Part shown: one piece after another, positions 32,165 through 47,359 of the stretch
Layout of the letters: the number at the start of each line of letters is the position of its first letter
Numbering within the stretch: position 1 is the first letter of the stretch
Virus record (IMG/VR): IMGVR_UViG_3300002460_000039
Location: 1-51,292 of that record
Source of the DNA: a virus
Length of the DNA stretch: 51,292 nt
Direction: 5' to 3' (one strand)
Translations under genes and position numbers: made by a program
The notes under the pieces: model-generated
Told to the model about the DNA's origin: nothing
The model's input: the letters and a program-made list of their open reading frames with translations, nothing else
Database searches by the model: none

Positions 32165-32836
32165 TTATTTAGGGAAATTTCTTCGACCTATCGTAAGCTC
32201 TTCGAGATAAAGAGACTGGTAGTTGGATACCGCGGCGAAAATAGCATCAGCCACATCAGACGGTTCCATCAAGAATTGGTTGTCTTGGCGAGACGTTGTC
32301 ATGTGGCTCTTGGTAGCGCCCAGGAAGACGTCTAGGACGCGTATGCCGTCTTTACGACTCTCAAGCCGTATTGCCTTCAGAAAGCCAGCCATGCCGTGTT
32401 TACTCGCAGAATACAAGGCTTCCCCGGGTGATGCGTTCCGTCCAGCCAATGAATTGATGTGAATAATAGACCCGCTTCGTCTCCACAGAAACAGGGGGAG
32501 TATTTCTTTGACCAAATAAATTGGGGCCACTAAGTTTGTAGTCACCAAATCCATCGGGTCGCTGCCCTCGTACTGCCCAGAGCTAAGTATAAGAGTATGT
32601 ATATTATACAGGTCTGCAAGTGCGACTAGTTTCTTTCGTACATTGAATAAATCCCCAATGACAACGGAGATATCTGCAGGGTCTTCACACGCCGTACGCG
32701 TCCACTCCAGTTTGGTTGCATCACGTCCCGTTATGATGACATGGCCCATAGCTGAGAATTTCTTAGCTATCTCGTGGCCAATGCTGCCACTTGCGCCCGT
32801 TATAAGTGTTGACAACCGCTCTCTTGAATTACGCAC
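32165..32836 (-). CDS. short-chain dehydrogenase/reductase (SDR)
   Basis: A 223-residue protein, last in the minus-strand operon. The NAD(P)-binding motif TGASGSIG is at residues 13-20, the catalytic triad is Ser129 (INSLAG), Tyr142 and Lys146 (YSASKHG), and the family's usual NNAG is replaced by SSGQ. SDRs in sugar clusters reduce or epimerise nucleotide-sugar carbonyls, which fits its place here. The start at GTG overlaps the upstream HTH gene by eight bases. Confidence 0.8.
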   Translation of the reverse strand: MRNSRERLSTLITGASGSIGHEIAKKFSAMGHVIITGRDATKLEWTRTACEDPADISVVIGDLFNVRKKLVALADLYNIHTLILSSGQYEGSDPMDLVTTNLVAPIYLVKEILPLFLWRRSGSIIHINSLAGRNASPGEALYSASKHGMAGFLKAIRLESRKDGIRVLDVFLGATKSHMTTSRQDNQFLMEPSDVADAIFAAVSNYQSLYLEELTIGRRNFPK

Positions 32837-33071
32837 CCGGCAATCTCGGGCGAGAGTATGTGTATGGTTTGCGGGATTGTCCTGTTAATGATTGCATTTG
32901 TGTTTTCTTTTCAAGCACTTGTGTACGCACGAACCGGTGTGACGTATATGCCTTCCGGCTAAACCGGATAGGGCTCAGTCCGACAAGTGGCGCAATGCGC
33001 CGAAATTGCCGTATGGACATGCCAGCAGTCTTGGCAGCCTCTTCGATAGTTACGAATACAGATTCATTCAT
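32829..33071 (-). CDS. excisionase-like helix-turn-helix protein
   Basis: An 80-residue protein. MNESVFVTIEEAAKTAGMSI followed by RQFRRIAPLVGL forms a MerR/excisionase-type winged HTH, with a basic C-terminus. It starts inside the stop codon of the E1 beta gene (ATGA). Excisionase-like small proteins usually bind DNA, so it may regulate this operon; an integrase partner is not in the window. Confidence 0.6.
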   Translation of the reverse strand: MNESVFVTIEEAAKTAGMSIRQFRRIAPLVGLSPIRFSRKAYTSHRFVRTQVLEKKTQMQSLTGQSRKPYTYSRPRLPGA

Positions 33072-34111
33072 TTTGTTAAATTGCCAGAAAACTGTATCAC
33101 ATTATCTGACGGCGGCAAATGCAATTCTACAAAAGATAATCCCGGAAAGTCTGGACATGGCAAGTGTAACATCTTGAAAACTTCGGATACAATACTAAAT
33201 CTTGTCGGGTAATACCCAGAAGCCAGTGCCGGTGCTGTCGGGCATGCAGTGTCTGGGCACGTGAGTGCCGCAGTTTTTATCTCGTACAGATCCAGTGCAC
33301 CGGCAATATCTCTAGCGGTACTGTAGCCTGGTGTAGATGCATCCACCACAAGAAGATACCCTGTTTTAGCCGCAGATTCTTGAATTGTTTGAGTGTCCAG
33401 CGGATACACCGACACCAAATCTATGATTTCTGCGAATATGGAACACTCTTCAAGAATATGTGCCGCTTTTAATGCTTCTAGTACCATATCCCCCACCGCA
33501 ACAATGGTGATATCCCCGCCGTAGTGCATTACACGGCATTTATCTAAAGAGACAGTTTTGGCATCCGCAGTGCCACGCAACTTATAAAGCCATCTAGATT
33601 CGAGAAAAACAACAGGATTCGGTTCTATCACAGCGGACAATAGTAGGCCTCGTGCGGTTTCTGGTGTGGCCGGTGACACGACCCGAAGTCCTGGGACAGC
33701 AAACAGCCCTTTGGCCGTCAGTGTATGTTGCGGGCCGTTCCCCCACTGCCTGCCAGTGGCAATTCGCAGTGTCAACGGACATGGGTATCCACCACCGAAC
33801 ATGTAATCCCATTTCGCCGCCTGTGTGATTATCTGGTCCATTGCATGTAATGCGAACTCTACCCTGCCATGATGAACAATCGGCCGAAGTCCAGAGATGG
33901 CCATGCCTACAGCCATTCCAGTTACTGCGTTTTCACTGCACGGGGTATCGTGTACCCTGTCTGGGAACTGCTTTGCCAGACTGCCCATGGTACCGTCAAG
34001 TCCGTTTGGGTAGGTAGCACCGAGACCGAGAACATGCACGGTATCGAACATGTTCATTGCGTCTTCCGTTGCCTGGTGTATTGCTTGTGCAAAGGTAATA
34101 ATTTCAGACAT
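33068..34111 (-). CDS. thiamine-diphosphate E1 component, beta subunit
   Basis: A 347-residue protein of the 2-oxo acid dehydrogenase E1 beta family (transketolase-like pyrimidine-binding and C-terminal domains). The segment TPCSENAVTGMAVGMAISG carries the expected thiamine-contacting glutamate (Glu60); GGYPCPLTLRIATG and VVSPATPETARGLLLSAV are typical further on, and a C-terminal transketolase domain follows (GDITIVAVGDMVLEALKA). It overlaps its alpha partner by eight bases, so the two are co-translated. No E2 or E3 gene is nearby, so the usual acyl transfer to lipoate is not evident. Confidence 0.8.
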   Translation of the reverse strand: MSEIITFAQAIHQATEDAMNMFDTVHVLGLGATYPNGLDGTMGSLAKQFPDRVHDTPCSENAVTGMAVGMAISGLRPIVHHGRVEFALHAMDQIITQAAKWDYMFGGGYPCPLTLRIATGRQWGNGPQHTLTAKGLFAVPGLRVVSPATPETARGLLLSAVIEPNPVVFLESRWLYKLRGTADAKTVSLDKCRVMHYGGDITIVAVGDMVLEALKAAHILEECSIFAEIIDLVSVYPLDTQTIQESAAKTGYLLVVDASTPGYSTARDIAGALDLYEIKTAALTCPDTACPTAPALASGYYPTRFSIVSEVFKMLHLPCPDFPGLSFVELHLPPSDNVIQFSGNLTK

Positions 34112-35081
34112 ACGGGGATGCTGTGTCTTTTGCCCTAGTAAAAACTTCCGCTATCTGCACAGTAATCTTGTCTAATATATGGTTCAGGGTGTCGCCAGAC
34201 ACCCCTCTGCTCTTTAGTTGGCACATGGTAGTTGTTATGGGATCGTGTTGCTGCCGTACATCTTCTGTGTCAATACTGCGAACACTTTCATCTTTGATTG
34301 GTCCAGAATGCGCCATGTGCCTGAAGCAAGACAAATGCAATACTACTGGCCGATTGGCTGCTGCTTGTGTCCTGGCATGCTGGGCTGCAGTGTAAACACT
34401 ACTAAAATCGTTGCCGTTCGCTTCCAAGAAATCCGCACCGAGACCGGTTACCACTTTGGACAACGAAAATCCTACAGACCTGCGCGTATGCCTTGGAGTG
34501 TTCACGGCGTAGAGATTGTCTTCAATTGCATAGATAACAGGCAACTGCATGGTTGCTGCGAGATTGATACTTTCGTAGACCGCACCCTCTTCCGAGGCCC
34601 CGTCACCTAGGAATACCACGGTAATGTTCCGGTGCTTTGATACTTTTTGTTGGAATGCGGACCCAGTGGCAATCGGAACAATACTACCGAGGATTGGTGT
34701 GCTGCCCATAAACCCAGCATCTCTATCCAGCATGTGCATTGAACCGCCTTTACCTTTGCAGCATCCATCGGTTTTGCCGTAAATCTCACATATCATTCTG
34801 TACAAGTTTCCGCCGCACGCCAAGTAATGCCCGTGAGACCGATGATTGCCAAAAACCCTATCACCCTTTTCTGTAGCCAAACATACGCCGACCGCTGCTG
34901 CTTCTTGCCCCGCCGACGAGTGATAGAATGAAAATATTTTGTTGGTTCGGAAATCTTCTGCTATGGCATTCTCCGTATGTCTTACCAGTAGCATCTTTGT
35001 GTAAGCGTCTAATAAGACAGCAGTTGGTATCACATCTTCAGCATACTCGTCTGTCACTACAGCCCGTGTACCATCACTCAT
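34104..35081 (-). CDS. thiamine-diphosphate E1 component, alpha subunit
   Basis: A 325-residue protein counted from ATG at 35081, which overlaps the upstream small gene by only eight bases; a longer start at 35129 is possible. It has the E1 alpha signature: RSHGHYLACGG, GCCKGKGGSMHML, and the thiamine-diphosphate motif GDGASEEG with the distal Asn in YESINLAA. The partner is the beta gene that follows. The pair would decarboxylate a 2-oxo acid and hold a hydroxyalkyl-thiamine intermediate; in this gene set it may donate a short acyl or acyloin unit to a sugar, which is my inference. Confidence 0.8.
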   Translation of the reverse strand: MSDGTRAVVTDEYAEDVIPTAVLLDAYTKMLLVRHTENAIAEDFRTNKIFSFYHSSAGQEAAAVGVCLATEKGDRVFGNHRSHGHYLACGGNLYRMICEIYGKTDGCCKGKGGSMHMLDRDAGFMGSTPILGSIVPIATGSAFQQKVSKHRNITVVFLGDGASEEGAVYESINLAATMQLPVIYAIEDNLYAVNTPRHTRRSVGFSLSKVVTGLGADFLEANGNDFSSVYTAAQHARTQAAANRPVVLHLSCFRHMAHSGPIKDESVRSIDTEDVRQQHDPITTTMCQLKSRGVSGDTLNHILDKITVQIAEVFTRAKDTASPYV

Positions 35082-35271
35082 CCGTGCACACAACCAGCCA
35101 GTCCGTATGAAGAACTTCACATTCCGCATTATCCAGATATACCTGGTTACCTTCTACTTTGCTCACCACTAGAATACTTTTAGATGTCAACCCACGAAAA
35201 AGTGCTGGATTACTGGTCTGCCAATCAAGTGCAAGTTTACTGAGCCGAACTCTACTACCAGGCAAAATCAT
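35074..35271 (-). CDS. small beta-barrel protein
   Basis: A 65-residue protein starting MILPGSRVRLSKLALDWQTS and ending TDWLVVCTDE. Valine-rich strands (SILVVSKVEGNQVYLDN) and an initial PGSRVRL turn suggest a small SH3- or KOW-like barrel. Such proteins in phages often bind nucleic acid or act as adaptors; here the role is unknown. It lies between the 53-residue gene and the E1 alpha gene. Confidence 0.5.
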   Translation of the reverse strand: MILPGSRVRLSKLALDWQTSNPALFRGLTSKSILVVSKVEGNQVYLDNAECEVLHTDWLVVCTDE

Positions 35272-35277
35272 TTAAAA

Positions 35278-35439
35278 CTAGCCCTCCTTCAGTATACCTA
35301 CGTTACGTAGATGGTCATCATAGGATGCCCCAGCAGATTCCATCAACTTGGATGGAGCAGTACAGAACCCGCAAACGCACCATATAACCCACCCCGGCAG
35401 AACGCTGTCCCATCCTGCAGAATCAATATCATGTGTCAT
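35278..35439 (-). CDS. 53-residue hypothetical protein
   Basis: Starts MTHDIDSAGWDSVLPGWVIW, then CVCGFCTAPSKL and ends HLRNVGILKEG. It overlaps the PhyH-methyltransferase stop by four bases (ATGA), so it is probably translated with that gene. Its CVCGFC cluster has three cysteines. No family recognised. Confidence 0.5.
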   Translation of the reverse strand: MTHDIDSAGWDSVLPGWVIWCVCGFCTAPSKLMESAGASYDDHLRNVGILKEG

Positions 35440-36806
35440 TGGAAAACTGTCCTTTTACGCATATCAATAAGCATCAACTGATGCTTTGTCGGCAGCATTA
35501 GCGGCGGAATTCCATAAAAATCACACAAGTCTCTGGCCGCAGTACCTACGTGAGGCGTATCGGTATCATCAATCAAGATAATACCAGCCGGACTGATATA
35601 CATCTTGGCTATGGCGATCTCAGAAAGAATTCCATCAGGTGAGTGGTCTCCATCAATGTGAATAAGATCTGGATTACCATATCCAGACAACGCTTCACAT
35701 ACTGCTGCCGTCTTTCGAGTATTCATAGACCATACTCTGGCATCGTCTGAGACGGGTCTAAGATTGTTCAAGGCAATTCGATTGGATGCAATACCGTCAA
35801 TTTCACCGTCTATGCCGATATATCGAGTCTCGTTTCTGCCGGACCACGCCGCTCCACACAGCAACGCCACACCAGAATACCCGTACCGCACACCAAGTTC
35901 AAGAATAAATGCAGGAACTTTGGCCGCACCCACAGCACGGTACCATGTGTAGGTGCTATCTGTATCAATCCAAGCATCTTCTGGCTGGCGTACCTGGCAA
36001 AGAATTTCTGCGTCTGTCAAGCCGTGCGTCAGTGCTTCAATACGCTCGTATGTTATTGGGAATTGGGGCTTTTTGGTGTGTACTTGTGGCACGTCCGTAC
36101 CCGAATATTCAGGTACCATATCTGTAAGATATTGCCAGTATTGTGCCGGGACCGAACCTTGAACTGTGGCTTTAGACCTACCACTCAGGGTTGTATAATC
36201 CGGCAAAAACCAGAATGTCAGAGCAACACGGCACGGCAGATTTAAATTGGAATCAACCGCATGTAAAACTCTGGCATCCAGCAGTATTGCATCTCCAGCA
36301 TTTACTGGAAGTGCTTCTTCGTTCGGGTGCTGCTTAGGCGTTTCCCAGTACTCGTAATGCCCAATTACCTCGCGCCGGTGCGAACCCGGCACATACAGCA
36401 GCGCTCCTGTATGATGTGCTGTTGTTGCATGCAGATAGCACAGTACGCCGACTTGTGGAGGTGTCTCACGGCACGTATCTGTGAAATTGTCCCAATTCCA
36501 CCAGTCAACGTGGTATGGACGACGACCTTCGTTATACCACTTCGGGACAATAACACCGAGTGCACATCTTACATCCGTGAAATGGTGTGCAGCCAGAACC
36601 CCGGCAGCTTTACGTGCGGCACGAGCAATGACTGCTGCTGACGGGTCCGCCAGACCTGCATAAGCCGTTCCATTATTCGGCTGTATGCGCTCCCACGTTG
36701 ATATGTGCGGTTCAATGTAGTCTAGTAACTCGGAAACCTCATCTGCAGAAAACACGCCCGGTACGTGTTGCACGCCGGTTGACAGAAAGTCACGGTTAAT
36801 CAACAT
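35436..36806 (-). CDS. PhyH-type dioxygenase fused to a SAM methyltransferase
   Basis: A 456-residue fusion. Residues 1-230 form a phytanoyl-CoA-hydroxylase-type Fe(II)/2-oxoglutarate oxygenase with metal ligands His99, Asp101 (PYHVDWW) and His182 (VLHAVDSN), and Arg193 as the 2-oxoglutarate anchor. Residues 290-456 are a class I methyltransferase of the Methyltransf_24 type: ILELGVRYGYSG, GIDGEIDG, LIHIDGDHSPDG and AGIILIDDTD. The pair suggests hydroxylation and methylation of the same substrate, likely a sugar or lipid-like precursor. Confidence 0.75.
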   Translation of the reverse strand: MLINRDFLSTGVQHVPGVFSADEVSELLDYIEPHISTWERIQPNNGTAYAGLADPSAAVIARAARKAAGVLAAHHFTDVRCALGVIVPKWYNEGRRPYHVDWWNWDNFTDTCRETPPQVGVLCYLHATTAHHTGALLYVPGSHRREVIGHYEYWETPKQHPNEEALPVNAGDAILLDARVLHAVDSNLNLPCRVALTFWFLPDYTTLSGRSKATVQGSVPAQYWQYLTDMVPEYSGTDVPQVHTKKPQFPITYERIEALTHGLTDAEILCQVRQPEDAWIDTDSTYTWYRAVGAAKVPAFILELGVRYGYSGVALLCGAAWSGRNETRYIGIDGEIDGIASNRIALNNLRPVSDDARVWSMNTRKTAAVCEALSGYGNPDLIHIDGDHSPDGILSEIAIAKMYISPAGIILIDDTDTPHVGTAARDLCDFYGIPPLMLPTKHQLMLIDMRKRTVFQ

Positions 36807-37467
36807 CCTGCTGTCCTGTTACCACACCGCGTGCACCTATCTGGAACAGTATTCCGCCAGAATGAGAATTTTCCATGAAGATATATGGAATGGAACCCCA
36901 ATTCCAGTGTTTGTAGAATGCCCAAAATGTACCGGCAACAACTGCCTGGTTGTGACAGTCATCCACCAGTAGCCACTCTGCACCAGAGTTTATGGCTTTC
37001 ATTACATCACGTTCCTTGTGCTGTATCTCGTGGCTGCCATCGATGTGTATTAAATCAATCTTTCCCGCTGGGTGCGCGAATACGTCTAGGTCATCACTAT
37101 CTGCTTGCAGCCAGTGTCCAGGTGTACCAGACAGTGCGGTTGCAATATCGACACCCATTTCCGCAGAGTCCACACCAAAATACTCGCAACCAGATGCAGC
37201 CATGAATGCCCTGGCACTGATACCCCAGCCGATACCAACCTCGTAGACTGTTCTCGGAAGTAATACCGCAGCTACGGCGTACTTGTTCTCACCATAGAGA
37301 ACGTGGTGTGCACCGTGTGTGCCACTGTGGATGTGCGGGTAACTATCCTTGATGCTTTGCGGGATATCTTTTCTATAATCATACCCACACGATACCTGCA
37401 CGCGCCGTATACGGTCCGCGAGTATGGCCAACTCCGCAGCAATAGTTTGCTCGTATCTTGTGCTCAC
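36796..37467 (-). CDS. class I SAM methyltransferase
   Basis: A 223-residue protein from GTG. The glycine-rich SAM motif VYEVGIGWGISARAF is near residue 75, GVDSAEMG follows, and LIHIDGSHEIQHKERDV and WLLVDDCHNQ are the Methyltransf_24-type acidic motifs, the same type as the fused domain downstream. Its 3' end overlaps the fusion gene by 11 bases. Members of this family O-methylate sugars in surface glycan clusters. Confidence 0.75.
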   Translation of the reverse strand: MSTRYEQTIAAELAILADRIRRVQVSCGYDYRKDIPQSIKDSYPHIHSGTHGAHHVLYGENKYAVAAVLLPRTVYEVGIGWGISARAFMAASGCEYFGVDSAEMGVDIATALSGTPGHWLQADSDDLDVFAHPAGKIDLIHIDGSHEIQHKERDVMKAINSGAEWLLVDDCHNQAVVAGTFWAFYKHWNWGSIPYIFMENSHSGGILFQIGARGVVTGQQDVD

Positions 37468-38499
37468 TCACTCTACCAAAAATCGTGGGTCTGTATGGCT
37501 GGAACGAAGTAGCTCAATTTTGGCGGCTATATCCGCATTTCGCATCGCCGCGTCAACAGTAATTAAATTGCGCCCAACTCCGGCAACATTAATGGGGGCC
37601 TTAATTAACGCACGAGTAATAACGTGCCTGGAGTATGCTTCCGAGTCCTCTATACCGAGTGTGCCGCACTCCGCACACCGTGCCCACTCAAACCCATTAT
37701 GAGTCAGCCTCTGCACAGGCACATCTATATGACGCCGACTATCGCGCAGTGCATTTATGAGATAAACAACACAGTTCGGGTTCGTATCTAGACTGCACAC
37801 ACTCTTGCCTATACCAGACAACTGGCTAATACCGTCGCCCGAAACCTCATCACGGCCATAGTGCCCAGACCGCTCCAGCCGTATCAGTGCTCTCGGCATT
37901 ACCTTGACATTCAATGACAGAAACTTGGCACGTGTCGATAGATCGCAGTCCACCCAATGATGGTTGACACTGGCCTCGTTCCAGCCATTAAGTCTGTTGA
38001 TAAGCATGTCCCGGCGTGCGGAGAAAAACCCGGAATGATCTAGTGCATGCCACTGCTCGACATGTGAGTCCATTTCGTAAGTCTCTTCAATATTCAGTGG
38101 CAGTTCATCCATTCGTTCGGCACGTCCCTGCCAAAGTACAACAGGGATATCTCTTGCTGCACACTCGGCAACAGCTTGCAACGCACCACTATGCATGTAT
38201 CTATGCATACCAAAGTACATAACCCAAGGACTGTTTGCCAGAAGCAGCACATTGTTGTAAAGCTCCCAATGGAGAATTCTGCCAACATGCCGAGCCTCGC
38301 ACGCCGGGGTATGCACAACTCGCTCTAATCCAAGAGACTTGCACGTGTTCGATACGAACTGTGCATTAGCATCATAGAAGGCATCCACGAAAATAAGTTC
38401 GAAATCCTGAAATGTCTGTATCGCCAGATTGCGTAGCATGAACTCCACCGGCGCAGTACCTGGATAGACATTGCAGGACAGTACAGATAGTGTTGGCAT
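37468..38499 (-). CDS. GT2-like glycosyltransferase
   Basis: A 343-residue protein. The N-terminus MPTLSVLSCNVYPGTAPV followed by LRNLAIQTFQDFELIFVDAF has the start and first nucleotide-binding strand of GT-A family-2 transferases, although the classical DxD is not obvious. The rest holds a HALDHSGFFSARRDMLI segment and a second half with cysteine pairs (CAECGTLG). It may be a divergent transferase or sugar-binding relative. It shares its stop region with the next gene by zero bases. Confidence 0.6.
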   Translation of the reverse strand: MPTLSVLSCNVYPGTAPVEFMLRNLAIQTFQDFELIFVDAFYDANAQFVSNTCKSLGLERVVHTPACEARHVGRILHWELYNNVLLLANSPWVMYFGMHRYMHSGALQAVAECAARDIPVVLWQGRAERMDELPLNIEETYEMDSHVEQWHALDHSGFFSARRDMLINRLNGWNEASVNHHWVDCDLSTRAKFLSLNVKVMPRALIRLERSGHYGRDEVSGDGISQLSGIGKSVCSLDTNPNCVVYLINALRDSRRHIDVPVQRLTHNGFEWARCAECGTLGIEDSEAYSRHVITRALIKAPINVAGVGRNLITVDAAMRNADIAAKIELLRSSHTDPRFLVE

Positions 38500-39050
38500 T
38501 ATTTTTGTTTGATCACCACTACATCATCCCAGCGGCCATTTTTGCGGAATATGTGTGCGGTACCATCTACGGCCTTTGCCAAGACATCGGCATAGCCTAC
38601 ATCCTCGATGATATACACGCCACCGTTTGATAAGTGCGGCCACAGTACCATGAAGCTTATAACCTGTGCTAGTGTGTGGTGGCACCCATCATCGATAATG
38701 ACATCAAAATTTCCACCAAATTCCACTGTCATACGAGTCAAGGCACTGTAATCGTACTGGTCGCATACCTTGCTGTGAATTCGTTCGGTATTTATAAGTG
38801 TGTCTTGGCGTATATCACAAGCAAAGATTTGCGCTTGTGGGAAGTAGTCTGCCCACATTTTCAGGCTAGCTCCGTGGACATAATTCGGTACAAGCGGCGA
38901 CATCAACTCTTCGTAACCTATGCCTATTTCCAGCAATCGCTGCACATCTCTGCCATTGAACAGCCTATCATAGAACCCGCTATCAATGTAGCTGTGCGCA
39001 AAGTACTTATCGCACGAGTATTTGATGGCCAATTCTTTAAGCACGGACAT
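38499..39050 (-). CDS. sugar O-methyltransferase-like protein
   Basis: A 183-residue protein, RLLEIGIG with GASLKMWADYFPQAQIFACD and VIIDDGCHHTLAQVISF, ending VYIIEDVGYAD. The combination of the LEIGIG motif, the aligned acidic residue after the second strand and the DDGCHH ending is that of macrolide/rhamnosyl O-methyltransferases (MycE/8-demethyl-rhamnosyl type). Such enzymes methylate sugars and need divalent metal. The start overlaps the upstream gene by 14 bases. Confidence 0.7.
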   Translation of the reverse strand: MSVLKELAIKYSCDKYFAHSYIDSGFYDRLFNGRDVQRLLEIGIGYEELMSPLVPNYVHGASLKMWADYFPQAQIFACDIRQDTLINTERIHSKVCDQYDYSALTRMTVEFGGNFDVIIDDGCHHTLAQVISFMVLWPHLSNGGVYIIEDVGYADVLAKAVDGTAHIFRKNGRWDDVVVIKQK

Positions 39051-40224
39051 CTATATACCCCGCCATGCGCCTAATATTGGACTGAACATCGTCAACCGTA
39101 AATTCACCAAAATGCAGTGCTGTATACCTGCCTCTGGCCATGACGTTTGGCGGCATCCAGCATGTAGAGAACCCATCTTTGATTAGAGTACACAGGTGAG
39201 GTTCAACTGGCAGCACACCGGGCTTTGGCCAGAACGTCAGCACATTGTATCCCAGGTATGCGGCCGTAACAGTTAGTCCACTAGACCCGCTACCCACAGT
39301 CAGTACAGCGTGTTTCATGAGACCGAGAGCCGTAAGTAGAGGCGTTTTCCCAATCATGTTAATCCACGTATTGCTTGGCTTCTCGCCAGCCAACAGAATC
39401 TCGTCAGCCACTCGCGCACAGTATGTGGCGTCCCATTCGCGGCCCAGTACGACCGGCTTCAGTCCAATCTTATTAAGGTAAATGCAAGTCGCAGCCCAGT
39501 CTTTCGGAAGCCAAGCTTGACCGGCAGTACATTCTTCATTCCATGCATTGGAACTGAAATAGACAGTGGCATATTGCACCTTCTTCATTCGAGCCAAGAC
39601 CTGCTCGTCAACCACTTCCGGTATCTCGAACTGAATATCATAGTCGCAGGCATACTCCGGTAACCACTCACCGAGATGTTTCCCCGCATCCACGTGCGGA
39701 TTGGCGAACAGGCTATACATCGGAAGGCTTACATCTGGGCACACTGGGCCTCGTGGCAATGGCATTTCTTCCGCAGAACATGAATCAAGAAGACCGCAAT
39801 TGTTCAACAAATCGAAGGAACGCGACCCTTCAAACTGGTTTGCACAAACTGTGTAATTGATGCGGCATGGCTGCTCACGATTTCGGATGTCCTTCAGTTT
39901 ATTCAGTGTCCAAATAACATCACCCACACCAGGCGGCCCGTAGATGTTTACTTTCTCAACACGAATCTCTGGCATCGCGTGTGCGTACCATGTACCGCGA
40001 AGGTTAAAAACATCTACCACAAAAAATCCAGCTTTCTCTATAGTGGAAACAACGCTCTCATCCACATCTTTTACTTGCAGAACTCCGGTACGCTTGAGCA
40101 ACCCCTTTGCCATGCCCAGATAACCGAGCTGATGCTTCCCGAGATCAATACCGTCAAGGCTGCGTCGGAACAGGTTTCCAGCGTCTAAGAGAGGTTCGAT
40201 ATCGTGAATAACGTTCATTGCCAT
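39037..40224 (-). CDS. GT9-like (heptosyltransferase-like) glycosyltransferase
   Basis: A 395-residue GT-B protein. VNIYGPPGVGDVIWTLNKLK is the N-terminal motif seen in the LPS heptosyltransferase family, and a C-terminal nucleotide-sugar-binding part includes LTVGSGSSGLTVTAAYLGYN. The middle portion contains NPHVDAGKHLGEWLPEY, unlike standard heptosyltransferases, so the donor sugar cannot be assumed. It starts in a 10-base overlap with the gene before it. Confidence 0.65.
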   Translation of the reverse strand: MAMNVIHDIEPLLDAGNLFRRSLDGIDLGKHQLGYLGMAKGLLKRTGVLQVKDVDESVVSTIEKAGFFVVDVFNLRGTWYAHAMPEIRVEKVNIYGPPGVGDVIWTLNKLKDIRNREQPCRINYTVCANQFEGSRSFDLLNNCGLLDSCSAEEMPLPRGPVCPDVSLPMYSLFANPHVDAGKHLGEWLPEYACDYDIQFEIPEVVDEQVLARMKKVQYATVYFSSNAWNEECTAGQAWLPKDWAATCIYLNKIGLKPVVLGREWDATYCARVADEILLAGEKPSNTWINMIGKTPLLTALGLMKHAVLTVGSGSSGLTVTAAYLGYNVLTFWPKPGVLPVEPHLCTLIKDGFSTCWMPPNVMARGRYTALHFGEFTVDDVQSNIRRMAGYIDVRA

Positions 40225-42101
40225 GCACTTAAAGAAACAGAAGACGCATCTTCTGTCCGCTGCACCACATTTACAAGCACTTTATGAAAGTGCAGCGCAA
40301 TATCATCCCAAGAAGGCAGTCTCCTGACTAGTTCAAGTCCGCGTTGTCTGTACTCTTTCCGCAAACTCTCATCCGTGTACATTGCGTGCATTGCCGCTAC
40401 AAAATCCTCCTCCGACGCAACCCACCGTTTTGTGTTTGTCCGGTTTGGAGTAAATGCATACTGGGACGGTTCCACCCAGTACATCGCCTCACCAGCCCAG
40501 GAGGGCATACCGCCACACCTGACCGCAATCTGAGGAATTCCGCAGGCTGCGCCCTCGTGTTGGCACATTCCCCAACTTTCGGACTCGGCGGTAGATAGCA
40601 TAACATCGAAGATGCTGTACATCGCAGGCATCTGATTTTCCGGCAGAGCAGTGCTGGTTGTGAGTACTTGACCGCGTATGCCTAGATAATCCGATAGTTG
40701 TGTGATGTCCCACACCCCGTCGTGATTACAGTGGATATACAAATAAACATTTGCCGGTTTCCCTGCGCATTTCCACCATTCCGCGAAGTATGCCAGTGAC
40801 AAGTCCAAACGCTTTCGCGGCTGGTTCATCCCAACCACGCCCCAGATGAATGCATCTTGTAACTTTGCACGCGGTACGGCAAGTTGTACTTTTGAGCGCG
40901 CATCCGCTTTGTCGTAAGTACCGTATAGTTTCGTATCCACACCATGACCAGCGATACTCGCTTGACCGATATAACCAGCTTTCTTGAATTGCTCTAGACC
41001 GAACTCGGTATGGAAGACAGCATGTTTTAACGCACGCAGCTGCGACACGACATCTTTGCGCACGTTCTCAGAATCAACAGCCACATACCCGACGGACGGC
41101 GGATACATATTGTGTGCGGCCATGGTCTGCATATGTGTCGCCACATTCCAGTGGTCGTCCAGCATAACAACAGCATCTGGCTCCATCTCGTTAATCAGTG
41201 CCTTTAGACGAGTACCGTGTGTGTCCGCAGGGTATATTCTGTAGGGTAACGTGTGGGGTTCGCCACTGTAGCCCACACCATAGACACGCACATCCCATCC
41301 CATTTCAAATAGACGACGACAGATATTCTTCGTGACTTTGCTGTAACCGGACTGGATACCAGCGTGTCCGATCCACAAGACCTTTTTGGTTGCGACTGCG
41401 GCTGACACAACAGGTCTTTCAGCCACGAGCAGTCCCAAATCGTCTCCCATTGCACGAATCTTCGGATGAAGTCCGTATTTCTGCAGGGATCTCACTGCAT
41501 GCAGCGTGAGTTCTGACAAACTCATATCCGCCAACACGTCATATAATGGATGTTCGCCAGGAGATATCAGGTGAAGTTCGGCTACAACATAGTGGACATT
41601 CGTAAAATCACCTGACTCGAAAATACTCCATTCTGCCCCTTCACAGTCCAGCTTCAGTAAATTAACCGGACTATGTGCCGCTTGCAATACGCTGTTGATA
41701 CCAGTACTTTGGATTCCGTTGATTTCATCTAACCCAAAAATATCAATATGCCCAGTGTTGTCCCCGCTACCGAAATCATGATTGCGTAGATGCCGCAATT
41801 TCAAATTGCTGGTAGCTTCACCGGTAACCGCAGTGTTATAGAGTTCAAAAACAGTAATGGTCTCTGGATTAGATGCCAGTTCGGTGATATTAGCTTTTAG
41901 CAGGTTGAAATTCTCAGGGTCCGGTTCGTAGCAAATGACTCGCTTGGCTTCGCGCGCCGCACATGCTGCCGCAAATGCGCCGATATGCGCACCGATATCC
42001 ACGACAACCATCCCGGCCATGGAACTTGGCAGCCCGTATTCGTTATTTGTAATGACGGATTCGCAGATTGCGGTGTCCCAAGTCTTGTAGCGTACTTTCA
42101 T
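40215..42101 (-). CDS. FkbM methyltransferase fused to GT4 glycosyltransferase
   Basis: A 628-residue fusion, the first gene of the operon. Residues 1-235 are an FkbM-type methyltransferase: VVDIGAHIGAFAAACAAR, CYEPDPENFNLLKANI and LLKLDCEGAEW. Residues 240-620 are a GT-B transferase of the GT4 kind: VLWIGHAGIQSGYSKVTKNI, then GMNQPRKRLDLSLAYF and the donor-site AESESWGMCQHEGAACG. Fusing a methyltransferase to a glycosyltransferase suggests that addition and capping of a sugar are linked. A CATATT box lies six bases before the ATG, so the operon may start here. Confidence 0.8.
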   Translation of the reverse strand: MKVRYKTWDTAICESVITNNEYGLPSSMAGMVVVDIGAHIGAFAAACAAREAKRVICYEPDPENFNLLKANITELASNPETITVFELYNTAVTGEATSNLKLRHLRNHDFGSGDNTGHIDIFGLDEINGIQSTGINSVLQAAHSPVNLLKLDCEGAEWSIFESGDFTNVHYVVAELHLISPGEHPLYDVLADMSLSELTLHAVRSLQKYGLHPKIRAMGDDLGLLVAERPVVSAAVATKKVLWIGHAGIQSGYSKVTKNICRRLFEMGWDVRVYGVGYSGEPHTLPYRIYPADTHGTRLKALINEMEPDAVVMLDDHWNVATHMQTMAAHNMYPPSVGYVAVDSENVRKDVVSQLRALKHAVFHTEFGLEQFKKAGYIGQASIAGHGVDTKLYGTYDKADARSKVQLAVPRAKLQDAFIWGVVGMNQPRKRLDLSLAYFAEWWKCAGKPANVYLYIHCNHDGVWDITQLSDYLGIRGQVLTTSTALPENQMPAMYSIFDVMLSTAESESWGMCQHEGAACGIPQIAVRCGGMPSWAGEAMYWVEPSQYAFTPNRTNTKRWVASEEDFVAAMHAMYTDESLRKEYRQRGLELVRRLPSWDDIALHFHKVLVNVVQRTEDASSVSLSAWQ

Positions 42102-42808: not shown

Positions 42809-45800
42809 TCAGACTCCTGTCCCTATTTCGTCGCGCGTGAATGTCGTGCCATCGTCAGATACGACCGCAGAATGGTCAACAGTCGTCCCGTCATCGGCAT
42901 ATATCTTGGTTTTGGATGAATTCTGAGTAAGCTTGTTGCGCCACGCCTTATAGACATAGTCAAGTTTTGTGAATGGTGTCTCAGATACTCCCGGTGCACC
43001 CTGTGCAGGTTCCGTACGGGTGGTTGTCAACACGGAGTAGACATCAGACAAAACGCCGCTCATCACAGTGATATCGGAACCCACATCCGACAAAAGCGAG
43101 TAGATGTCGCTGGCTGTGGACTGCAGGGCACTGGCGCGTCCAGCCGCCAATGTAGCAGCGGAATGTGCGTCACTAACCGCACCACTTAGAGCCACTACAC
43201 CCGAGTATGTGTCCGAGAGGATACCAGACATCACGGTAACATCGGAGTGCAGGTCTGAGAGAAGCGAATAAACATCGCTGATTGCGGACTGATTTAACAG
43301 CACTCTGCTGTTTGTTTGTTGTGCGGCAGACGCAGCATCAGATGCCAAGGACTGAATAAGAGCGGTTCTAGAAAAGATATCGCTCATCAGAGACCCAAAG
43401 CTTGATGCATCGGAGTGTGCAGTGTACTTTGCGGACCACACCCGTGATGCTATATCGGACATATCCGATGCAGTAATGGACCCGGCAGTGATTGCGGACC
43501 GGATATCAGACATTGTTGATATATCGAGAGGGACACCCGCAGTCAGCAGCGACTGAATATCTGACACTTGCGACTGATTGACCAGTACGCGAGAATTAAT
43601 CTGAACAGCTGCGGACAAGATATCCGACAAATCAGACGAGAGCGTTGCCTTCACTGCACTCGCAATATCGCTGATATCCGATGCAGATACAGTAGCCGTG
43701 ACTCCCGTAATAGCCGAACGGATATCTGACATTGTAGATGCGTCTAAGGCTACGCCAGCCCCAACAAACGATTTCAGATCACTGACTGCATCCGACATCA
43801 AATCCGAGACCTGAGAGTTGGTAGCTACCAGCTTTGGCACACGTGACTGAAAATCGCTATAAAAGTCTGACAGTATATCGGACATGGCAGTCAACATGGA
43901 ATCCACATCGGATACAGTCGATGTCATTACACGGAAAGCAGACCCAAACGATGAGACGGCATTATGTGCCCCGACACCGATGTACTTCTGCGACCACACT
44001 GCGGATGCTATATCTGAGATATCCGATGCCGTGACAGTTACAGTAGGTCCAGCCGCAATGGCCGAGCGAAGATCCGATATGGTTGATGCGTCCAGCGGAA
44101 CACCCGCGACAATCGCAGAGTACACATCACTAATACGTGATTGATTCAAAAGTACCCTGCTGTTGGCCTGTGTTGCTGCTGATGCCGCATCACTAGCAGC
44201 GGACTGTATAAGCACAGCTCGGGAGTATATATCCGACATCAAAGAGCCGAAGGAAGATGCAGCTGAATTAGCAGTATATTTTGCCGACCAGACGGCACTG
44301 GCAATATCCGAGATGTCCGATGCACTCACACTAGCGGGGAGACCGCCGATTTGAGAACGTAAATCAGAATACACATCAGATAACTGTGAGTCAGTTGCTA
44401 CCCGTTTCGGAACACGGGACTGGAAATCGCTATAGAAATCACTAAGTACATCCGACATAACAATCACCTTAGATAGGGTGTCGGATACATCGGATCTTGT
44501 TTGTAGAACACGGCTATTGATCTGCCCGGCCCGAGAGAAGATATCTGACATCATGGAACCGAAACTGGATGCTGCCGAATTAGCGGTGTATTTAGCTGCC
44601 CAGACTGCGGACGCGATATCACTGATGTCGGATGCAGAAACACTAACCGTGATGCCGCCAATTTGCGAGCGTAAATCACTGTGCATGTCAGAGAGTTGAG
44701 AATCTGTAGCGACTCTCTTCGGTACACGTGATTGAAAATCTGAATAGAAATCGGATAACACATCCGATAGTACTAAGATCCGGCTGTTCACCTGCTGTGC
44801 GTGTGACGCAGCATCCGACGCTGATGATTGAATCAAGACAACACGCGAATAGATATCCGAGAACATGGAACCAAAACTGCTGGCCGCCGAGTTTGCTGTG
44901 TACTTCGCAGCCCACACAGCGGAAGCAATATCTGAGATATCGGAAGCACTGACGCTGACTGTAATACCGCCGATTTGGGATCTCAAATCCGAATGCACAT
45001 CGCTTAATTGCGAACTGGTTGCAACCAGTTTCGGCACGCGTGAACCGAAGTCGCTCTGAAAGTCTGACAGAGCAGAATAGATATCCGATTGAATCCCACT
45101 CATTACCACTAGAAACGATGCGATATCGGAAATGCGGGACTGGTTCAAGAGAACTCGGCTATTTGCCTGTTGTGCGGCAGACGCTGCATCCGATGCAGTT
45201 GATTGAATCAGTGCCGCCCGAGAATATATGTCGGACATCATAGAACCAAAGCTGGACGCAGCAGAGTGTGCAGTGTACTTCGCTGACCAGACGGCACTTG
45301 CGATGTCGGAAATGTCAGAGGCACTGACCGATACAGTAATTCCACCAATCTGGCTTCTAAGATCGGAATGAACATCTGATAAAAGCGACTGTGTAGCCAC
45401 AGCTTTAGGCACGCGTGACTGAAAATCTGACTGCAGGTCAGATAAAGCGGAATAGATATCAGACTGTATCCCACTCATTACTACCAGGATGGATGTGATA
45501 TCCGAAATCCTCGATGCTGCCAAGTGGAAAGCCGACCCAAAGGAGGACGCAACGTTGTGGGCCGAGACACCTTTGTACTTTTGCCCCCAGACAGCCGACG
45601 CTATATCTGAAATATCGGAAGCACTAACACTGACTGGAATCCCAGCAATCTGTGATCGGAGGTCGCTATGCACATCCGACAGTTGAGAATTCGTGGCTAC
45701 CAACTTTGGAACACGACTCTGAAAATCACTATAGAAATCGGACAGGATATCCGACATAGTTGTCAGCATGGAATCGACATCGGATACGGTAGATGTCATG

Positions 45801-47359
45801 ACACGGAAAGATGAACCAAACGAGGATGCAACGTTGTGAGCACCCACGCCGATGTATTTCTGTGCCCAGACTGCCGAGGCGATGTCGGAAATGTCAGATG
45901 CCGTGATCGCGGCAGTGATTGCAGCAACAGCACTCTTGATGTCAGAGATTGCATCGCTTAGTTGAGAGTCGGTAGCGACACGCTTCGGAACTCTGGATTG
46001 AAAATCTGAGTAGAAATCCGATAGAACGTCCGACATTACCAAGATTCGGCTATTTGCCTGTTGAGCATGGGAAGCGGCATCTGACGCAGATGACTGAATC
46101 AGGACAACACGAGAGTAAATATCTGAGAATAGTGAGCCAAAGCTGCTAGCAGCAGAGTTTGCTGTGTACTTCGCAGCCCAAACGGCAGAAGCAATATCGG
46201 AAATGTCCGATGCCGAAACAGATGCTGTTATGCCGCCAATCTGAGACCGCAGGTCGGAGTGGACATCCGACAACTGTGAATCAGTAGCCACCCGTTTTGG
46301 GACACGTGACTGGAAATCGGAATAGAAATCCGATAGAACATCCGACATGATTAGAATACGGCTGTTGGCCTGCTGTGCATAAGATGCGGCATCGGAAGCT
46401 GCCGATTGGATCAGCACCACCCTGGAGTAGATATCCGAGAACAGCGAACCGAAACTGCTAGCTGCGGAGTGGGTTGTGTATTTCGCGGCCCACACTGCAG
46501 ATGCGATATCGGATATATCTGACGCACTGACTGAAGCCGTAATCCCAGCAATTTGAGATCTCAGGTCACTATGAACATCTGACAGTTGTGAGTCCGTAGC
46601 TACACGTTTTGGCACTCTAGACTGAAAATCTGAATAAAAGTCGGACAACACGTCTGACATGGCTAAGATTCTGCTATTAGCCTGCTGAGCGTGAGAAGCT
46701 GCGTCGGAAGCCGAAGACTGGATCACGACTACGCGGGAGTAGATATCTGAAAATAGTGAACCGAAACTGGATGCAGCTGAATGCGCCGTATATTTGGCGG
46801 ACCAGACACGCGATGCTATATCGCTCATGTCCGATGCAGAGACACTAACTGGGATAGCTACAACAGCACTATAAACATCGCTAAGTATGCCCGACATCAC
46901 TATCAAGTCCGAGTGCATATCGCTGACATCGGACCGGATATCAGACACAACACCGGACAGGTTACTGGCCATGTTCGAGAGGTAGCTCAGAACGTTGGAG
47001 ACATAGCTGCCATCGGCACGTTCGCCTTCAAGGATCAGTGTCTGGTAAGCAGCCCCGGTTGCAGACAGGCTAATAATATAAGTATCGTAGAACGCAGCCG
47101 ACGCATCCGATATATCAGCCTTGGCAAGAGCGATATGGTATATGCCGAGAGCCGATGCTCCAACATGTGTTATAGCAGCAGTCAATGACCCTGTACCGGA
47201 AGTAATAAAATTGGTTCCAGTTGCCGAACGCAACTGACCGTACACCTTGATCTTTGTTGCGGCAGATAGTGCACTCTCCGGCGTAGCGAAGTCAGCACTA
47301 TCCACCATCATCCAGTTGATGTGGTTGTTCGTCCGGCCTTGATAGATTTTCTGCGCCAT
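42809..47359 (-). CDS. giant Ser/Asp-rich repeat fibre
   Basis: A 1516-residue protein. The first 110 residues are a BppU-type Ig module (NHINWMMVDSADFATPESAL, then LGIYHIALAKADISDASAAF). Residues about 174-1440 consist of some twelve modules of about 105 residues, each with a core SDIASAVWxxKYTxxS-type segment, ASSFGS, SDIYSR, a QQANSR loop, SDVLSDFYSDFQSRVPK and SQLSDVHSDLRSQI. Ser-Asp steps every four or seven residues imply a long trimeric coiled coil. Ser is about 23 percent of a module by my count. The C-terminal 70 residues (FTKLDYVYKAWRNKLTQNSS, then TDEIGTG-type ending) are a common phage fibre end. A GGTGAG ribosome site precedes the ATG. Confidence 0.75.
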   Translation of the reverse strand: MAQKIYQGRTNNHINWMMVDSADFATPESALSAATKIKVYGQLRSATGTNFITSGTGSLTAAITHVGASALGIYHIALAKADISDASAAFYDTYIISLSATGAAYQTLILEGERADGSYVSNVLSYLSNMASNLSGVVSDIRSDVSDMHSDLIVMSGILSDVYSAVVAIPVSVSASDMSDIASRVWSAKYTAHSAASSFGSLFSDIYSRVVVIQSSASDAASHAQQANSRILAMSDVLSDFYSDFQSRVPKRVATDSQLSDVHSDLRSQIAGITASVSASDISDIASAVWAAKYTTHSAASSFGSLFSDIYSRVVLIQSAASDAASYAQQANSRILIMSDVLSDFYSDFQSRVPKRVATDSQLSDVHSDLRSQIGGITASVSASDISDIASAVWAAKYTANSAASSFGSLFSDIYSRVVLIQSSASDAASHAQQANSRILVMSDVLSDFYSDFQSRVPKRVATDSQLSDAISDIKSAVAAITAAITASDISDIASAVWAQKYIGVGAHNVASSFGSSFRVMTSTVSDVDSMLTTMSDILSDFYSDFQSRVPKLVATNSQLSDVHSDLRSQIAGIPVSVSASDISDIASAVWGQKYKGVSAHNVASSFGSAFHLAASRISDITSILVVMSGIQSDIYSALSDLQSDFQSRVPKAVATQSLLSDVHSDLRSQIGGITVSVSASDISDIASAVWSAKYTAHSAASSFGSMMSDIYSRAALIQSTASDAASAAQQANSRVLLNQSRISDIASFLVVMSGIQSDIYSALSDFQSDFGSRVPKLVATSSQLSDVHSDLRSQIGGITVSVSASDISDIASAVWAAKYTANSAASSFGSMFSDIYSRVVLIQSSASDAASHAQQVNSRILVLSDVLSDFYSDFQSRVPKRVATDSQLSDMHSDLRSQIGGITVSVSASDISDIASAVWAAKYTANSAASSFGSMMSDIFSRAGQINSRVLQTRSDVSDTLSKVIVMSDVLSDFYSDFQSRVPKRVATDSQLSDVYSDLRSQIGGLPASVSASDISDIASAVWSAKYTANSAASSFGSLMSDIYSRAVLIQSAASDAASAATQANSRVLLNQSRISDVYSAIVAGVPLDASTISDLRSAIAAGPTVTVTASDISDIASAVWSQKYIGVGAHNAVSSFGSAFRVMTSTVSDVDSMLTAMSDILSDFYSDFQSRVPKLVATNSQVSDLMSDAVSDLKSFVGAGVALDASTMSDIRSAITGVTATVSASDISDIASAVKATLSSDLSDILSAAVQINSRVLVNQSQVSDIQSLLTAGVPLDISTMSDIRSAITAGSITASDMSDIASRVWSAKYTAHSDASSFGSLMSDIFSRTALIQSLASDAASAAQQTNSRVLLNQSAISDVYSLLSDLHSDVTVMSGILSDTYSGVVALSGAVSDAHSAATLAAGRASALQSTASDIYSLLSDVGSDITVMSGVLSDVYSVLTTTRTEPAQGAPGVSETPFTKLDYVYKAWRNKLTQNSSKTKIYADDGTTVDHSAVVSDDGTTFTRDEIGTGV
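43030..46840 (-). repeat. tandem protein repeats of the giant fibre (about 12 modules)
   Basis: Modules recur about every 315 bases. Two types appear: one with AKYTANSAASSFGS, another with QKYIGVGAHNVASSFGS (fourth, fifth and tenth modules); the eleventh is degenerate (SAVKATLSSDLSD). Protein identity is high, while the codons differ between copies, for instance SDISDIASAVW is written differently in almost every module. Confidence 0.8.

Follow-up and report, generated by a model that had tools for sequence, protein, structure and literature searches.

Pairs of proteins resembling the E1 subunits of pyruvate dehydrogenase (PDH) have been assigned to sugar biosynthesis in actinobacterial antibiotic clusters. 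According to the relevant sections of PMC4753412, PMC4425429 and PMC10338323, AviB1/AviB2 (avilamycin), Pau11/Pau12 (paulomycin) and EvdU5/EvdS3 (everninomicin) are proposed to transfer a C2 unit that derives from pyruvate and to put C2 branches on keto-sugars, the ketone being reduced later; for paulomycin, this last step on the acetyl branch is assigned to a separate reductase (PMC4753412, same section). The thiamine diphosphate (ThDP)-dependent addition of a C2 branch onto a keto-sugar, with later ketone reduction, is also described for YerE of the yersiniose pathway in parts of PMC4753412 and PMC4425429, although YerE consists of one ThDP flavoprotein, of acetolactate synthase type, and falls into another ThDP enzyme class (as outlined in PMC10338323). 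Here, a two-gene E1-like pair encoded by the IMG/VR virus record IMGVR_UViG_3300002460_000039 was analysed; the whole stretch of 51,292 bases is called the window below. As with the Avi, Pau and Evd pairs, the alpha and beta genes of the window lie in a glycan- or sugar-type gene set without E2 or E3, and their products are similar in length to Pau11 (325 aa) and Pau12 (345 aa; PMC4425429, passage on these genes). The likeness is one of published descriptions, and the known pairs come from antibiotic clusters, not from phages. Rather than being a stray copy from a host pyruvate dehydrogenase, the window pair is a member of a separate E1 family with intact catalytic residues, no E2 or E3, an altered beta C-terminus and a conserved sugar-type cassette.

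The E1beta-like subunit (33,068 to 34,111, minus strand, 347 aa) and the E1alpha-like subunit, the ThDP-binding half (34,104 to 35,129, minus strand, 341 aa from the first ATG), overlap by 8 nt; a later ATG of the alpha gene at 35,081, the start used in a preliminary description of this DNA, gives 325 aa. Far beyond chance, alpha matched Pfam E1_dh (E=1.8e-61) and beta matched Transket_pyr (4.5e-20) and Transketolase_C (8.9e-21). The preliminary description had stated that the subunits overlap and keep their key motifs, and this was borne out. The GDG...N motif is present in the window alpha (GDG at 159-161 and N189 in the numbering of the open reading frame (ORF) P0002), and a strict regular expression for it matched 35 of 41 family alphas, while Glu60 and His129 of beta were invariant in all 43 aligned family betas. 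The pair thus carries the ThDP motif and the catalytic Glu and His of a 2-oxo acid dehydrogenase E1, as in PDH and branched-chain keto acid dehydrogenase (BCKDH). Its top NCBIfam matches were PDH E1 models, with scores well under the equivalog or subfamily cut-offs, namely 244.5 bits for alpha against the PDH E1 alpha model TIGR03182 (cut-off 393.85) and 198.3 bits for beta against NF006667 (cut-off 321). Neither the transketolase cut-off (488 bits; alpha 38.5, beta 59.8) nor that of DXS (465.95 bits; beta 56.2) was reached. Judged by its sequence, the enzyme looks intact and independent of E2 and E3.

The absence of E2 and E3, also claimed earlier, was confirmed for the record, in which searches for 2-oxoacid_dh (E2), Biotin_lipoyl and Pyr_redox_dim (E3) gave no match. 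The partners encoded alongside E1 in PDH and BCKDH are thus missing from the record, and the result holds for the record only, which is linear by its IMG/VR class, comes without a completeness estimate and may be a fragment. The record is a real phage, with matches to a head protein, a tape measure and an endolysin on the same molecule as the E1 pair; its capsid protein shares 34-35% identity with the counterparts in Brevundimonas and Halorubrum phages, which does not single out a host. Neither E2 nor E3 was found in any of the 15 related viral records. All 29 cellular genomes with a relative of the pair had an E1_dh match, and 22 of them (18 Patescibacteria-type and 4 titled 'bacterium') had no 2-oxoacid_dh match; the same 22 had no Pyr_redox_dim match, and the other 7 carried both. 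Weak Biotin_lipoyl matches were detected in four of the 22 (G003, G013, G017 and G024), only that of G024 being over the cut-off. Metagenome-assembled genomes and viral contigs are incomplete, but a division into 22 of 22 without and 7 of 7 with E2 and E3 is hard to ascribe to gaps.

Relatives were collected with scans that rely on short exact patterns, and the counts of relatives are lower bounds. Scans of IMG/VR for beta revealed 15 other viral loci. A scan with the alpha alignment gave 12 viral loci, two of them on contigs new to the beta scans (L091 and L095), which were left out of the trees and counts; with the window alpha alone as query, 22 pattern stretches were hit, and no viral relative was confirmed among them. 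One scan of a species-genome collection gave 29 cellular loci, 18 with Patescibacteria-type titles, 4 titled 'bacterium' and 7 from Opitutaceae, Mucilaginibacter, SAR86 or Pelagibacteraceae. In the class to which the L016 genome belongs, 31 of 285 sampled genomes matched at E<=1e-50, but only 3 passed the family-level threshold (E below 1e-160). The claim that such a pair is unusual for a phage did not hold, as many viral contigs carry a related E1, split or fused. A further 29 phage-database records with E1beta matches, under names such as Listeria, Enterococcus, Staphylococcus and Acinetobacter, were not taken as phage evidence, most being unannotated fragments, with the exception of two cyanophages that were used. 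The Acinetobacter record, with AcoA/AcoB and E2 amid many chromosomal-type genes, looks like host DNA and served as an acetoin reference only.

Phylogeny against the PDH, acetoin and branched-chain E1 families had been suggested as a check, and in neither tree did the pair group with E2-linked E1s. In the beta tree the family comprised 43 rows (support 99/96), the window being paired with L002 (100/95) and L003 coming next; in the alpha tree it comprised 41 rows (100/99), again with the window paired with L002 (100/96). These supports are to be read with the family rows having been gathered with the family's own motif. All E1 references with an adjacent E2 fell outside the family in both trees, and the acetoin dehydrogenase E1 AcoA/AcoB formed separate clades. 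AcoA/AcoB share the alpha/beta architecture and size of the window pair, and aco operons also hold SDR (short-chain dehydrogenase/reductase) and MDR (medium-chain dehydrogenase/reductase)-type dehydrogenases; in the aco operons examined, however, E2 was always present and the beta C-terminus was short. The sister group of the family in the alpha tree (96/92) consisted of two E1s without E2 nearby, one from a sugar cluster of Solidesulfovibrio and the other from a Streptomyces biosynthetic cluster; the beta tree does not fix their position. Alpha and beta rows clipped to 200 aa or less were excluded from the trees, and the identical pairs of L004 and L005 were treated as one line of evidence. 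L020_b2, with a very long branch, was kept in the beta tree and excluded from the aligned-row counts, its ORF being included among the 45 counted for the C-terminal tail; the beta of L015 is present but was merged out by the ORF picker in favour of a longer overlapping frame, and is missing from both the beta tree and the tail count.

Inspection of the E2-binding region had been suggested as well, and the end of beta proved to be altered relative to E2-linked betas. Neither outcome that the preliminary description had named as refuting it, a place among host PDH E1s with intact E2-binding residues or E2/E3 elsewhere in the phage, was seen in the trees and the record. After a conserved proline, 35-56 residues follow in 45 of 45 family beta ORFs, compared to 14-18 in 13 of 13 E2-linked betas, so that the family betas exceed the normal E1beta end by 17-42 residues. 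Residues 3-317 of the window beta, as modelled by AlphaFold2 (mean pLDDT 90.8), superposed on residues 1-324 of 1w85_B (Z 42.5, root-mean-square deviation 1.7), the PDH E1beta chain of a structure that also contains the E2 binding domain. The last 30 residues of the window beta had no counterpart in 1w85_B, being an extension beyond the end of the solved chain. E2 docks at this C-terminal end of E1beta; with about 30 extra residues there, the window beta would not have the free end for docking that PDH and BCKDH have. Compared with heterotetrameric PDH E1, the beta fold is alike (Z 42-44 to the human and Bacillus E1beta) and the ThDP residues are shared, whereas the window pair lacks E2 and E3, has an extended beta C-terminus and scores below the equivalog cut-offs.

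The genes around the pair were compared by ORF clustering of 47 loci, 45 of the split family (the window included) plus the cyanophages S-SM2 and P-TIM68. An MDR zinc alcohol dehydrogenase was the most constant partner, being present in 41 of the 45 split-pair loci and, in 34 of the 41 with a separate alpha call, lying directly upstream of alpha on the same strand; the window itself lacks this gene. The MDR was closest to primary-alcohol and aldehyde dehydrogenases, namely class III alcohol dehydrogenase and N,N-dimethyl-4-nitrosoaniline (NDMA)-dependent alcohol dehydrogenase. An HldE1-like kinase, matched by TIGR02198, and a nucleotide-sugar epimerase/dehydratase were each found in 30 of 45 loci, an HldE2-like nucleotidyltransferase over the TIGR02199 cut-off in 17 and a GmhA-like isomerase in 11. 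In the Patescibacteria genomes of L015 (5930-8002) and L024 (4040-6031), MDR and E1alpha form one uninterrupted in-frame ORF, and therefore there is good evidence that both proteins act together. The sugar-type cassette is conserved across relatives. Of the sugar context named in the preliminary description, the sugar-type neighbours and the SDR (13 of 45 loci) were recovered, whereas the PhyH fusion was not: its homologue was not found in L002-L009 and it formed no family of at least three loci in the clustering. Taken as a whole, the observation behind that description is confirmed and its interpretation partly supported.

In L043-L045, the module has the order MDR-E1alpha-E1beta-SDR and is flanked by virion genes, with a head maturation protease on its upstream side and a virion structural protein on its downstream side, as determined by domain searches on L043; in L002, the closest relative of the window, an MDR comes after a portal gene. 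The ORFs L043:1134-2861 and L043:7118-7891, which flank the E1 module, match positions 39-153 and 1-36 of phrog_3017 (head maturation protease), as if the protease gene had been split or rearranged around an insertion. Downstream of the module, L045:13099-15744 encodes an 881-aa phage protein that matches the sialyltransferase family phrog_4603, which again hints that these phages work on glycans.

The same slot is filled by a very different E1 form in cyanophages. S-SM2 gp198 and P-TIM68 gp190, annotated as 'transketolase central region-containing protein', are E1-type ThDP proteins beside the same MDR, HldE1-like kinase and HldE2-like nucleotidyltransferase families, and differ from the window pair in being a single fused chain of 381-402 aa with E1_dh and Transket_pyr but without Transketolase_C. 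One scan with the S-SM2 protein revealed 57 viral loci (L100-L156), none of which contained Transketolase_C, the C-terminal domain of the window E1beta. An MDR was found in 56 of these loci; in the 55 where the sequence reached far enough, it lay directly upstream in 54. An HldE1-like kinase was present in 56 of the 57 (some matches being weak and upstream of the MDR), a nucleotidyltransferase in 39 and an SDR in 9. The MDRs of a Patescibacterium and of S-SM2 were 55.8% identical, and the fused E1 had a very long branch in both trees. The fused form thus does without the whole E1beta C-terminal domain, where known structures place the E2 site.

To our reading, it is slightly better than an even bet that the pair is a stand-alone ThDP carboligase, ligating an acyl unit from a 2-oxo acid to a sugar-type carbonyl together with a partner oxidoreductase, for a glycan; the carboligation, its donor, acceptor and product, and its purpose are what we infer. 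The E1-derived enzyme would cleave a 2-oxo acid, most likely pyruvate, hold the two-carbon acyl fragment on ThDP and, instead of transferring it to a lipoyl-E2, ligate it to the carbonyl of a sugar or sugar precursor. The partner oxidoreductase, the MDR in most relatives and the SDR in the window, would reduce the new ketone or provide the acceptor carbonyl. Where relatives have the complete cassette, activation of the product would fall to the HldE1-like kinase and the HldE2-like nucleotidyltransferase, and these genes suggest that the product is phosphorylated and nucleotidylated; for the phage, its probable destination is a glycan on the host surface or the virion. More tentatively, the cassette may represent an unrecognised nucleotide-sugar pathway that many aquatic phages have in common with Patescibacteria and some marine bacteria (SAR11, SAR86). 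In it, the zinc alcohol dehydrogenase and the E2-independent carboligase would build a carbon-extended or branched sugar for activation by the kinase and nucleotidyltransferase, the phages carrying split, fused and stripped-down forms to recoat host or virion.

Several observations weigh against carboligation. The sugar acyl transfer by the Avi, Pau and Evd pairs is proposed, not reconstituted, in the relevant sections of PMC4753412, PMC4425429 and PMC10338323. The SDR of the window's family is present in a low share of loci, no match to the cassette MDR, kinase, nucleotidyltransferase or isomerase was found in the window, and no dehydratase of the kind that makes keto-sugars was recognised among the window proteins scanned. 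As the pair and the SDR are present without these matches, the window is either a reduced version relying on the host or a fragment. Two residues considered as markers of E2 docking were dropped, because neither cleanly tells E1s that have an E2 from those that lack one. The site matching human E1beta Asp289 is acidic in only 2 of 43 family rows; this proves nothing, since 5 of 13 E2-linked betas also lack an acidic residue there. Another conserved beta Glu is shared by all 13 E2-linked betas and by none of the 43 family rows, yet several E1s without a neighbouring E2 have it.

The GmhA-like and other heptose-type genes of the cassette also fit a transketolase-like ketol transfer, in which a glycolaldehyde unit from a ketose or hydroxypyruvate would give a higher-carbon ketose feeding a heptose-like route through the GmhA, HldE1 and HldE2 relatives counted above. 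This is fairly unlikely, as alpha scores far higher against PDH E1 alpha than against transketolase; moreover, 17 of 22 Patescibacteria-type genomes contain a further frame, roughly 280-370 aa long, with a weak match to E1_dh, which we read as their own split transketolase, and therefore a substitute would not be needed. The MDR-E1alpha fusions, the near-constant adjacency of both genes and the affinity of the MDR to class III and NDMA-dependent alcohol dehydrogenases could instead reflect plain decarboxylation, E1 making an aldehyde from a 2-oxo acid that the MDR reduces to an alcohol, or the reverse, with no C-C bond formed. The window, with its E1 pair and no MDR, does not suit this idea, which we also hold to be unlikely. 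Its phosphonate form was rejected, PEP (phosphoenolpyruvate) mutase being absent from the window, from all 15 viral records and from 21 of 22 Patescibacteria-type genomes.

Overall E1 homology, the catalytic residues and the PDH E1 models as top NCBIfam matches are what would be expected of a phage copy of a host pyruvate or acetoin dehydrogenase E1 that joins host E2 and E3 to raise acetyl-CoA during infection. Such a copy is already disfavoured and very improbable, because the scores lie well below the PDH cut-offs, the pair falls outside the E2-linked clades, relatives occur in genomes without E2 and E3, the beta C-terminus is altered and the neighbours are of sugar type. Functionless cargo, either decaying or picked up by accident, or host DNA wrongly binned as viral would account for the incomplete cassette and for the lack of the MDR that L002 has. 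It is nevertheless the least credible explanation, with hardly any weight, given that the frames are open and the catalytic residues invariant at 42-59% identity with the relatives, that structural genes lie on the record, that the MDR of L002 and the module of L043-L045 stand after or between virion genes, and that isolated cyanophages carry the fused form.

If carboligation holds, a core-metabolism enzyme would have been cut loose from its complex, re-used for glycans and carried repeatedly by phages. In Patescibacteria, for which no E2 or E3 was found, labelling this E1 as pyruvate dehydrogenase would lead metabolic reconstruction astray, and so would classing it in phages as an auxiliary gene of energy metabolism. 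The cassette of dehydrogenase, E1, kinase and nucleotidyltransferase yields a chemical prediction testable on purified proteins. An E1-derived, E2-independent ThDP enzyme of sugar biosynthesis is a known kind, whereas the surrounding cassette is undescribed as far as our searches go: no description of the module was found in the open-licence literature of PubMed Central, and the sections on the Avi, Pau and Evd pairs do not describe an MDR-E1-HldE1-like kinase cassette. Phage-borne O-antigen nucleotide-sugar genes are known in Patescibacteria phages (PMC12911398, in part) and lipopolysaccharide genes in cyanophages (PMC9602691, in part); the word 'transketolase' is absent from the main text of both papers.

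In the window, the pair belongs to a minus-strand run in the order FkbM fusion, two genes without Pfam match, methyltransferases, PhyH fusion, E1alpha, E1beta, an 80-aa ORF and the SDR. The SDR (32,165 to 32,836, minus strand, 223 aa; adh_short 4.3e-28) is a possible ketoreductase partner of the pair. Between it and E1beta, and overlapping both, lies the 80-aa ORF (32,829 to 33,071, minus strand), an ORF call for which family searches gave no match; by eye only, it resembles a small helix-turn-helix protein. On the other side of E1alpha, the fusion of a PhyH oxygenase (PF05721) and Methyltransf_24 (PF13578) occupies 35,436 to 36,806 (minus strand, 456 aa). The glycan-type genes of the same run (36,796 to 42,101, minus strand), with homologues in the same order in L002, comprise methyltransferases (36,796-37,467 and 38,499-39,050), the two genes without Pfam match (37,468-38,499 and 39,037-40,224) and the FkbM methyltransferase-glycosyltransferase fusion (40,215-42,101). 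Beside these genes, at 42,809-47,359 on the minus strand, a 1516-aa protein with many SDI/SDV-type repeats and weak coiled-coil-like Pfam matches only is encoded, and it is possibly a fibre.

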